A stretch of 64,000 bases of DNA, taken from NCBI GenBank assembly GCA_022457155.1, contig JAJGOT010000500.1, positions 248,001-312,000 of the forward strand, written 5' to 3'. The notes below the pieces were generated by a model. It was not told where the DNA came from. It searched no databases and was given only the letters and a program-made list of their open reading frames with translations. This document shows positions 15,101-33,100 of this stretch, one piece after another. The position numbers were made by a program, and so were the translations under genes. Position 1 is the stretch's first letter. Every line of letters starts with the position of its first letter. This DNA is from Cladopsammia gracilis. Taxonomy: Eukaryota > Cnidaria > Anthozoa > Scleractinia > Dendrophylliidae.

Positions 15101-18100
15101 GAAGTTCCTATTTCAATCTTGCTGTCAGTTGCCGGATTTCTGAATTGAAAGTACTTGGTTTGGTTACCTTGCAGTATTCCACAAACTCTATGATGTCAGG
15201 AGTAGAAACTGTTCGTTCCTCTCAGCCAGGTTTACCGGGAAAATACGTCTCGTGTTGTAAAAATCTGTTTACAATATTGGATACAGTTTGCCTTGATAAT
15301 CCATGCCCAACAATGCGTGCGATTTGTTCTTGTTTTACAGCAGACGACCATTATTCTCTCTCTTTTCTCAACCGAGGTGGTATTATTGCGATGTACGTGA
15401 GCCATAACTGAAGAAGGACGTGTTTTCACAAAATTCGCAACTGACAACGAGTTTGAAATAGCAACTTGCTCGCGAAAGTTGCAACTTGCTCGCGTAACTT
15501 CCAACTTGCTCGAAGCAAACTGTCAATCAAAATACCAATGTTGCGGCGGAAGTTTGCAAAGTTGTCATCAAAAGAACATCCGGTTTGACTGTAACCCTTT
15601 TGAACACTACCAGTACCCTTTCAAGGCCGCTTTTAGTTTGGCCATTCAAATGAAAGCCCTGGACCAGTGCTTGCCTTTGTGTTGGTTTACTCTTTTTGCG
15701 TCATGAATTATTAAAGGAAAAAACATGCTAAAAAACCTTTTCACTCGCAGAGCCAATTCTGCAGACATGTACTATGCAACTACACAACTTGATTTAGTTC
15801 TAACTTTGAGTCTGCCAACGAAATCCTATGGTGTGCGCATCCAAATTAAACTTCTTCCGCAGTACATTTGCATGGTACCATGGCCATTTGTTTTTGCATT
15901 TTACAAAATGACATTTGGTATTTTTCTTGAATTTTCTTTTTTGAAACTCTTGGGAGTTTAAGTGTTAAACGAATCCTCGTCAATTTGCTCTTTTTTTGAG
16001 CAGTTTAAAAATTGAGTGTCGAAAGTAATTACACAATTGCTTTGGTTTTGCATTGCTACGCTTTGTGATTGGCTAAAAAAAATCTCGCGCCACTTTCTCG
16101 ACCAATCAGAAGTAAAACCAAAACCAATCGTGACTTGCTCGCACGCGTTCTTCCGCTCTTGGCGCCGCCGACATGTAATTGCTTCGAGCTCTGATTGGCT
16201 CATTGGATTGTTTACGACTGCTGTGATTGGTCAGAGTAATTACTTTGGTTTTGGTTTTACGACACTCAATTGCGGAAAACTGCTCTACAATCGCGCCTAT
16301 CAAACACTCTCCTACAGACGAGGAAACTTGCCTACAATTTATGAAAGTAGATAAAATTGTGAAGTGTGACCATTCAAATGAATGTATTATGAATGAATTT
16401 ACAAATATTGAGCAGTGCTTTCTTTTTGTTGGTACTGCTGTACACATTTTTACCGAAGACAGGTGAAAGCTATTGAGCAGTACTTTCCTGTGGTGCTGTT
16501 TATTAAGCTGTACAAGGTGGTCGGTTCTAACGTTTGAGTCTGTGACCACTTAAATGAAAGCTACTGAGCAGTACTTTCCAGTTGTGCTGTTTATAATTCA
16601 TGTACAAGGTGGTTCGATCTTTTAAGCCCGCGGTTGAAGGCCTAAAATGTGACCATTCAAATGAAAGCTATTGAGCAGTACTTTCCCGTGCTGCCGTTTA
16701 CTTTGCTGTGCAAGTTGGTGGTTCTAATTTTTGAGTCTATGGATGAAATCCTAAAGTGTAACATTCAAAAGAAAGCTATTGAGCAGTACGTTTTTGTGGT
16801 ACTGTTTATTATGCTGTACAAGGTTGTGCTAACTTTTTTATTCTATGGATGAAATCCTAATGTGCGACCATTGAAATGAAAGCTACTGAGCAGTACTTTA
16901 ATGTGGTACTGTTTATTATGCTGTACAAAGTGGGTTTAACGTTTGAGTCCGTGGACGAAATCCTAAAGTGTGACCATTCAAATGAAAGCTACTGAGCAGT
17001 ACTTTCCTGTGGTATTGTTTATTATGCCATACAAGGTGGTTCTAACTTTTGAGTCTGTGGATGAAATCCTAAAGTCCATTCAAATGAAAGCTATTGAGCA
17101 GTACTTTCCTGTGGAAAGGTTTATTACACTGTACAAGGTGGTTCTAACTTTTAAGTCTGTGAATGAAATCCTAAAGTGTGACCATTCAAATGAAAGCTAT
17201 TGAGCAGTACTTTCCTGTGGTACTGTTTATTGTGCTGTACAAGGTGGTTCTAACTTTTGAGTCTGTGAATGAAATCCTAAAGTGTGACCATTCAAATGAA
17301 AGCTACTGAGCAGTACATTCCTGTGGTGTTGTTTATTATGCTGTACAAGGTGGTTCTTACTTTTGAGTCTGTGAATGAAATCCTAAAGTGTGACCATTCA
17401 AATGAAAGCTGTTGAGCTGTACTTTCCTGTGGTACTGTTTATTGTGCTGTACAAGGTGGTTCTAACTTTTGAGTCTGTGGATGAAACTCTACAATGAAGT
17501 CTTTCAAAATGAATGAAAACTCTAAGGGGTTCTTTTCTATGGTTCTTATGTAGAGTTTTGAAGATGAAATCCGTATGTGTCACCATTGAAATAGAAGGTG
17601 AAAAGCTGTTGAACGGGGCATTCCTGCTTTTTATTTTTTTGCACAATGTGTTGCTAACGTTTGAGTTGATCGAACACATTTTAAGTTTGGCCATTCAAAT
17701 GAAAGCCTTGGACGAGTTCTTACCTTTTTGCTGGTATAATCTTTTTTGCGTCATGACTTATTTATTTGTTTGAGAAAGCACTCCACTTAAGTCGGGAAGT
17801 AGTGGTATGCGCTACTTTATAACATAAAGGAATGTGTGGAATGTTGGGTGTGGCAACCCTAGGTCTATTGTTTTTACCCTAGCTCATTAACCCTAACCCT
17901 AATTCAAAATGGCGTCCCCTAACCCTAAGTCATTAACATATTAACCCCAACTTCGTACCCCTAGGTCTAGGGTGTAGAACCCCCTCTAGGTCTATTGTCC
18001 TAACCCTAAGTCATTAGCGTATTAACCCTAAGAATTACAGCTGCGCATGTCCTAATAACCCTGATCCTATTAGCTTATTAACCCTAAGAATTGCCACTGC

Positions 18101-30100: not shown

Positions 30101-33100
30101 ATGTTAATTCGTTCCTAAACTGTTATCGCTAATTGAACGTTCATTCGTCACGCTTTAAACTATCGCAGCCCAGTTACTTTTCTTTCGAGTAAAGTTGTTA
30201 AATTTAATATAAATTAATTGTTGTCTGCTGCTTTGTTTTTTGACCGAGGTGCTAATTTTCCATGCAAATTTATAGTTCAGTATTCGCATAATTAAACGTT
30301 TGAACTTTGAAGCTACCGGAAAGTCTTGTTATCAAAACTTAAAGCACACGCAAATATAAAACTCCGTGTTGTCTGTGAAGTTTTGGTCGCTTGGGAATCT
30401 CAACTTTCAAAGTTGACAGCTTTCGCTTTTTCGGTTTGACTTGGCGTTTGGTTATTGACTCCAAGACATTTAGCCCTTGCTTTTGACTGGTTCCATTTTC
30501 AGGGTCATCTTTCTTTGGTTTTTGATCCAAAACATCCTTTCCTTCTTTGACGGTAATCTTCAGAATCGAATCATTCGTGCTATCTACGATGGGGCAAATA
30601 GGATCAAGGGGAGCTCTGATATAGAATGTCCAGAAAGAAAAGAGGAAACACCGATGGACATAGACTCTGTCATGAGTGGCGTTCAAAAACTTTCCCTGAC
30701 AAATTGATCATGTGTAATTTCTTTTTATAGTTGCAGTCTCTAAGACCCGAGGCATGTATCTTAGATCTTATTTTTATTAAACGTTTAGTTGAATTTGTTA
30801 CAAACATGTGTGAGAATTTGGGCTAAAAACCTTAACATTAAACTAAGAAATGATACTGCGCATACGCTGTCGCTAAAAATCCGTTGAGTTTACTACATGT
30901 GTCCAACATGGAAGCGACCCTACATCGCTATCATGTTTGTAATTGAATTTGAACCCATTTAGACCAAAAAACCCTACTGCGCATGCGTACTGGTTGAAAA
31001 ATCCAAAGTGTCCCAACCATGTTGTCCCACATGGAAGAGAACTTGTGTCACTATAAAGCGATCTCAGAATTCGGGGTTAGGTAAGCAAATACACGACTTT
31101 GGTCGTTTTTGCACTGGCGGGGGCCCGCCTTGGCTGGATGGGCCCCCTGACATTGTTGAATAATTCATGAGATCCTCCATTTTGAATATTTTACTCAGTT
31201 TCGCTATTTGGAATATTTATCTCAATTTCGCCATTTTGAATATTTTACTGAATATTCCACCATTTTGAATATTCATCTCAATTTCGCCATTTTCAATAAA
31301 CAATGAGATCCACCATTTTGAATATTTTACACGGTTTCGCCATTTTGAATAAACAATGACATCCGCCATTTTGAATTAGGGTTATTAGGACATGCGCAGT
31401 GGCAATTCTTAGGGTTAATAAGCTAATAGGATCAGGGTTATTAGGACATGCGCAGCTGTAATTCTTAGGGTTAATACGCTAATGACTTAGGGTTAGGACA
31501 ATAGACCTAGAGGGGGTTCTACACCCTAGACCTAGGGGTACGAAGTTGGGGTTAATATGTTAATGACTTAGGGTTAGGGGACGCCATTTTGAATTAGGGT
31601 TAGGGTTAATGAGCTAGGGTAAAAACAATAGACCTAGGGTTGCCACACCCAACATTCCACACATTCCTTTATGTTATAAAGTAGCGCATACCACTACTTC
31701 GGGACAAAAGAAACACATCAAGCAATCGCAAAAAGAAATGGAATGGGTTTTTCGCATGCCGTCGAGCGTCATCAGTCTTTAAGCCGTTCTCTGATGATAT
31801 ATAACCGAAGAACTCAACTTCGTAATGGCTATTAACATTACTGGATTTTTAAAATTGTTGGCACTGAAAATGCATAGTAACAGGTGTAAAGCATAATATA
31901 GATAACCCAAAGGCGTGGGTTTTTTGTGGGGACATATTCTGGTAATTTTTAATTAGAATACGCTTACAAAACTATGTTGTTTTCATGTTCAAACACCAAA
32001 CTTTTTCCAGGTACACATAGTCAAAGTAGCGACTTCTTTCCATATTTTACGAGAGGAATAGGTGCAATATTTTGAGGTATTTTTTGGAATGAGCAGAATA
32101 TGTCCAAAGAAAACGCGCCCTAAGTCTTAAAACTAATTGTTGTATAATATGCAAATTCAAAAACTCACTTTCCAAAACCATTCGTCGGTTGGGTGAGCTT
32201 CGCAGATGTAGACAACAGCAAAGTCTGCGACCTCTTCAAACTCCCGAACGATCTTTGCAAAATCGCTCACAAGAGGGATTACAAACGGGGGTCAGGTACA
32301 GCTGCCGAAGTTTAAGACCAAAGGCCGGTCGTCTTTCACAAAATCCAACAGTTTACACGCTTTGCCGTCCGTTGTAACAAGCTTGCAATTCGGCGCTGAA
32401 GAGCCAAGCCGAACCGTCTTGTTCAAATCGCTCGTAAATAGCTTTAACATGGCTGAAAACATCTTGTGGGTACCGTAGTCCTCCCAAAAGTCCTGGTAAG
32501 GGACCATTAAATACCGCTCCTCGCGTCTTTTAAGTCGTTCCTTGAGAAATGGAATGTAAGAGTCGATCATTACCAAGACGAAAAGAATTGCGACATTTAG
32601 GACTGTGAAGCCCAGAGTGATTCTGTGAGTCAACACCTCCACCATGTTGACGAGATGACGATCTCACCAATATGGCAATTTGCAAAAATTGAATGCTCCT
32701 ATAAACTACGAAAGCTGAGGAGGAAATTCTGATTTCCGACTTACGACTTCCGATTTCCGACTTTTGATTTCCGGCTTCCGTGGAGGAAATTCTGATTTCC
32801 GGCTTCCGTGGAGGAAATTCTGATTTCCGACTTACGACTTCCGATTTCCGACTTTTGATTTCCGGCTTCCGAGGAGGAAATTCTGATTTCCGACTTCCGA
32901 CTTCCGAATTCTTTTTGGGTAATATTTACATTGCTACATTGATGCTGCATTGTGATTGGCTAAAAAATCTCGCGCCAGTTTCTCAACCAATCAAAAGTAA
33001 AACCAAAACCAATCGTGACATGCTCGCATGCGTTTTCCGGTTAGCATGAGATTCCATCAATCAACACCACCTCGGACGCCTTATTGAGACTTATAACGCA

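Follow-up and report, generated by a model that had tools for sequence, protein, structure and literature searches.

Vertebrate Mavericks, as described in PMC8097293, are 12.7-24.6 kb long, most commonly end in AGTAGT...ACTACT, have inverted-repeat arms of 46-1,447 bp, carry a separate integrase and have PolB grouped with the ATPase, PM and PZ; 96% of the loci reported there are eroded. Group I Mavericks are marked by a Vsr-like insertion of ~140 amino acids in PolB, according to PMC10328495. In PMC12005156, Mavericks are the largest DNA class listed and make up 5.20%, 6.74% and 1.41% of the genomes of three corals, so that both helper elements and deletion derivatives are plausible in such hosts. 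Adintoviruses are defined in PMC11071296 by an OTU-like PolB together with a recognisable hexon and an integrase, and cytoplasmic linear plasmids are thought, in the account of PMC11071308, to descend from polintons after loss of the particle genes. Here we describe an element of 13,901 bp (17798-31698) in a 64-kb stretch of the stony coral Cladopsammia gracilis (contig JAJGOT010000500.1, positions 248,001 to 312,000), hereafter the window. With moderate confidence, we regard it as a non-autonomous group I Polinton/Maverick in a stony-coral nuclear genome that has an intact replication gene and was mobilised in trans. Its distinctive combination is clean borders, apparent recency, an intact PolB, 3-kb arms and no integrase found; a literature search, judged mostly on titles and the starts of abstracts, retrieved no integrase-less coral Polinton.

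A preliminary description of this DNA had set the borders by a 6-bp duplication, TCGGGA, and an empty site in a duplicated locus, and alignment of the flanks bore this out. When joined, the flanks of the element match 43756-44058 with 91% identity over 314 alignment columns, and this copy, which has diverged from them, is uninterrupted. Because the empty site carries TCGGGA once, a chance origin of the duplication was rejected. No match to the element at E ≤ 0.01 was found elsewhere in the window. The preliminary description had also read the 5'-AG terminus and the 6-bp duplication as signs of a Polinton/Maverick, a kinship now strengthened by the complete AGTAGT start and ACTACT end, the Vsr-like insertion and a vOTU fold in PolB. 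The Polinton/Maverick features present (6-bp duplication, (AGT)2//(ACT)2 ends and inverted arms) are shared with group I and vertebrate Mavericks as these are described in the two reports above, as are a Vsr-bearing PolB and a length within the reported range. Unlike those elements, this one has no recognisable integrase, ATPase, protease or capsid, and its arms measure 3.1 kb rather than 46-1,447 bp.

The polymerase had been called intact, and its 1376-codon frame matches Pfam DNA_pol_B_2 (PF03175) with an E value of 4e-47. Motifs Exo I-III and Pol A, B and C are all present, and their key residues, together with C224/C225, H318, D815, E826 and H833, are invariant across 19 aligned sequences. 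PolB departs from 13 of the 364 columns on which the 18 others agree; because each of those others departs at 0-24 columns, it is, by this sequence measure, not unusually decayed. Its G+C content is 49%, vs 35-39% in the remainder of the element and the flanks. The Vsr-like nuclease was rejected as a novel feature because it is already the published group I mark (PMC10328495); this mark places the PolB with those of group I Mavericks.

Structure modelling and fold comparison placed an OTU fold at approximately residues 190-330 of PolB. The region at the N-terminus is probably a terminal-protein domain: the order of strand and helix in the model fits such a domain, and three densovirus-type PolBs top the list of viral folds, over 281-323 columns and with a high root-mean-square deviation. 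Matches of the N-terminus in the PDB are mostly OTU proteases, by which the region before residue 187 is barely probed.

PolB belongs to a large family, with 2,347 of 5,580 candidates homologous at E ≤ 1e-3. Among the 120 matches listed, the nearest is 65% identical and the median length is 1,355.5 amino acids; the Pol C pattern was found in all 120, Pol A in 119, Exo I in 115, the vOTU cysteine in 101 and the Vsr core in 100. Alignments covered 18 of the 120 listed homologues for PolB (A1), and 36, 22 and 23 of 120 for A4, A3 and A5, respectively. The few listed homologues with names include proteins of Oculina patagonica and Montipora capricornis. In a tree of 121 sequences, the sister of PolB is P0002 (support 0.999), and next comes a group of seven members (0.851), a Montipora protein among them. 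Scans for relatives of PolB in viral contigs and prokaryote genomes, which may omit records of or near the source genome, gave no pattern match in viral contigs with a single-protein query, 0 of 157 stretches in viral contigs with the 19-sequence alignment as query, and 0 of 50 in prokaryote genomes. One homologue, P0013 (1595 amino acids), has a different arrangement within the family, with C2H2 zinc fingers before the polymerase.

The earlier failure to find an integrase, ATPase, protease or capsid frame in the unique region was upheld by profile searches against Pfam. We scanned 107 of the 108 stop-to-stop frames of at least 45 amino acids in the whole element, arms included (the 108th is PolB), and obtained no credible match to any of these genes. 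In the unique stretches beside PolB, 72 of the 75 frames of 24-44 amino acids (leaving aside three frames overlapping the start of PolB) likewise gave no match to this gene set. The strongest chance-level match was Myc-LZ (E = 0.0025), in a tandem-repeat frame. Because the scans returned chance-level matches alone, integrase, ATPase, protease and capsids therefore appear to be absent or beyond the reach of Pfam. None of the components expected of an autonomous Polinton (retrovirus-like integrase, packaging ATPase, protease, and major and minor capsid proteins) was recovered by Pfam. The four diverged direct repeats upstream of PolB are perhaps regulatory or linked to an origin.

The arms had been described as ~3.1 kb and long for the group, which their measured lengths confirm, but their mosaic structure had been overlooked. 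They differ at 108 of 2,850 aligned positions, the ragged inner end counted in, and these differences define three zones: none in the outer 300 bp (0/300), 58 of 899 (6.5%) in the middle zone (18098-18997) and 8 of 1,499 (0.5%) in the inner zone (19298-20797). A single rate was rejected by Fisher tests (outer vs middle, P = 6e-8; inner vs middle, P = 1e-17), and with it one uniform clock for both arms; the zones were drawn after inspection of the profile, so these P values are descriptive, and bins 19198, 20798 and 20898 were excluded from the tests. Private pieces of 297 bp in the left arm and of 166 and 109 bp in the right arm sit in the middle zone. Given these pieces and the three unequal zones, the arms have recombined, been partly homogenised or derived from different parent copies. 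Part of the mismatches in the middle zone may be tandem-repeat misalignment. On its inner side, the left arm ends within a AACTCAGAGC array.

Together, the outer and inner zones hold 8 mismatches in 1,799 positions. This low divergence and the empty site would imply a recent insertion, achieved without an integrase of the element's own. A recent insertion, Polinton termini and no integrase found in turn point to an integrase acting in trans, and the earlier proposal that the element borrows its integrase is thus a fair one.

Table 1. Features of the element and its insertion site (positions in the window)
Feature	Position	Strand	Remarks
Left target-site duplication copy	17792..17797		TCGGGA, directly outside left end
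Left inverted-repeat arm	17798..20890	+	3,093 bp, starts AGTAGT; private piece 18998-19294
Unique stretch	20891..22666	+	No recognisable gene; four diverged 105-nt repeats at 21295-22105
PolB	22667..26797	+	1376 aa, single intact frame; layout: probable terminal-protein domain, vOTU, cysteine-rich stretch, exonuclease, Vsr-like insertion, polymerase
Vsr-like insertion in PolB	25100..25318	+	Approximately residues 812-884
Small gene 1	27243..27665	+	140 aa, intact, conserved Cys/His pattern
Small gene 2, broken	28065..28443	+	Residues 1-111 at 28065-28397, tail 28393-28443 in other frame
Right inverted-repeat arm	28629..31698	-	3,070 bp, ends ACTACT; private pieces 30627-30792 and 31243-31351
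Right target-site duplication copy	31699..31704		TCGGGA, directly outside right end
Paralogous empty site	43756..44058	+	Single TCGGGA at 43867

Besides PolB, two small genes had been claimed. Both are real, as 284 of 288 candidates for small gene 1 and 152 of 155 for small gene 2 were homologous at E ≤ 1e-3, but the second is broken rather than intact in this copy. Compared with its relative P0131, small gene 2 has lost ~64 internal residues, and the last 17 residues of P0131 match the out-of-frame tail. Lengths of 174-194 amino acids are common among its listed homologues and others are shorter, down to 69, so its short length would not by itself be special. Among the matches listed, the nearest homologues of the small genes are 82-87% identical vs 65% for the nearest PolB, a gap that may reflect a mosaic element or sister PolBs that survive as fragments below the search length. 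Named homologues come from Oculina patagonica for small gene 1 and Porites harrisoni for small gene 2. Neither Pfam nor further comparisons gave small gene 1 a credible family identity, and searches with small gene 2 gave none either (best E = 0.027). A scan of viral contigs for small gene 2, which like those for PolB may omit records of or near the source genome, gave 0 of 83. A structure model of one of its relatives (mean predicted local distance difference test score 59.9) has helices at 12-20, 30-45 and 50-76, with low confidence beyond, and matched no viral fold at E ≤ 0.001.

Among other relatives of polintons, adintoviruses share the OTU part of PolB, and an adintovirus of the coral Stylophora is included in PMC11071308; unlike the adintoviruses defined above, this element yielded no hexon or integrase in the Pfam scans. 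In the Stylophora virus, as presented there, a gene of its own encodes the terminal protein, whereas here the equivalent region looks fused to PolB. In the account of that source, cytoplasmic linear plasmids and transpovirons likewise combine a polinton-derived replication protein with no particle genes; in contrast to them, the element is chromosomal, has a target duplication, is known from its chromosomal copy alone and retains the Vsr-like insertion in PolB. A self-replicating linear element with protein-capped ends, also proposed earlier, is neither favoured nor contradicted by these observations.

In the mechanism that we propose, the N-terminal domain of PolB probably acts as the primer for synthesis from the AGTAGT ends, and the predicted vOTU protease probably frees this priming domain from the polyprotein. 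The exonuclease and the polymerase, with its Vsr-like insertion, would then replicate the element. Since the polyprotein is intact, the element may still be able to drive replication of its own ends. Integrase and particle genes would have been lost, or were never present in the element, and insertion with the 6-bp duplication would depend on an integrase acting in trans, the simplest source being a full Polinton whose termini match. Copying of one end onto the other in strand-displacement replication may explain the long arms and would have overwritten the segment in which the missing module lay. Such end-to-end copying is a general notion for protein-primed genomes; a literature search for cases of one end copied onto the other returned nothing useful. 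The break in small gene 2 is as expected of a derivative. If the element is such a deletion derivative, a Polinton that has kept its polymerase remains able to insert even without an integrase, a point relevant to how Mavericks came to occupy 1.4-6.7% of the three coral genomes in PMC12005156.

Several observations weigh against a trans-mobilised derivative of this kind. The insertion looks young if the outer and inner zones are taken as the measure, but the middle zone is 6.5% different. One frame matched the arm-binding domain of phage lambda integrase at E = 0.042, which is chance level among 107 frames and concerns the phage lambda type rather than a retrovirus-like integrase; a diverged or spliced integrase below the reach of Pfam may also be present. 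For the priming domain, Foldseek alone gave no match of the PolB N-terminus in the PDB at E ≤ 0.001. The full Polinton helper with the same ends is postulated, and the element is known here from one copy.

In the leading alternative, which we consider unlikely, the element may belong to a PolB-only Polinton lineage in which many gene-poor, long-armed copies persist by copying themselves and borrowing an integrase. Such a lineage would consist of animal Polintons without integrase or particle genes, specialised for replication only, and might be the nuclear equivalent of transpovirons and linear plasmids. The intact and not unusually decayed PolB, the size of its family, the conservation of both small genes in many sequences and arms far beyond the vertebrate range are all consistent with it. 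Against it, this architecture is known here from that one copy and small gene 2 is broken. The difference between 65% identity for the nearest PolB and 82-87% for the small genes further suggests that the small-gene relatives may not carry this PolB intact. If such a lineage exists, replication would have become separate from integration and packaging in a viral transposon within an animal genome, a separation otherwise inferred for linear plasmids and transpovirons.

The broken small gene 2 shows an internal deletion in this copy or a recent parent, and it might be that a full Polinton inserted here and that a later deletion removed the integrase and particle genes. We consider this quite improbable, because the arms are symmetrical, both ends are perfect, frames down to 24 amino acids beside PolB hold no recognisable remnant and the few differences in the outer and inner zones leave little time. 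Very unlikely, in our view, is a self-sufficient element whose target opening and end joining are the work of the Vsr-like nuclease in PolB or of some protein not recognised here. The invariance of the nuclease core (D815, E826 and H833) in the 19 aligned sequences and mobility without a recognisable integrase would fit this idea. However, group I Mavericks share the Vsr-like insertion and the vertebrate Mavericks of PMC8097293 have a separate integrase, the core pattern was missed in 20 of the 120 listed homologues, and PMC11071308, where it deals with endonuclease insertions in such polymerases, takes them as intein-type invasions. A full element collapsed or misjoined by the assembly is the least credible explanation: assembly is difficult across long inverted repeats, and a mixture of copies could account for the mosaic arms, but both duplication copies and the terminal motifs are intact and agree with the empty site, and each arm has private pieces.

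The empty site stems from a local duplication in which 13636-14982 and 31699-32706 are 80-94% identical to 42170-44651. Both copies of this duplication contain similar minus-strand frames (32292-32663 and 44237-44662), which look deiodinase-like. Related tandem arrays with units of ~88-109 bp lie at 8784-9682, 16541-17486, 44987-45697 and 58367-59435, and one of them stops ~300 bp to the left of the element.

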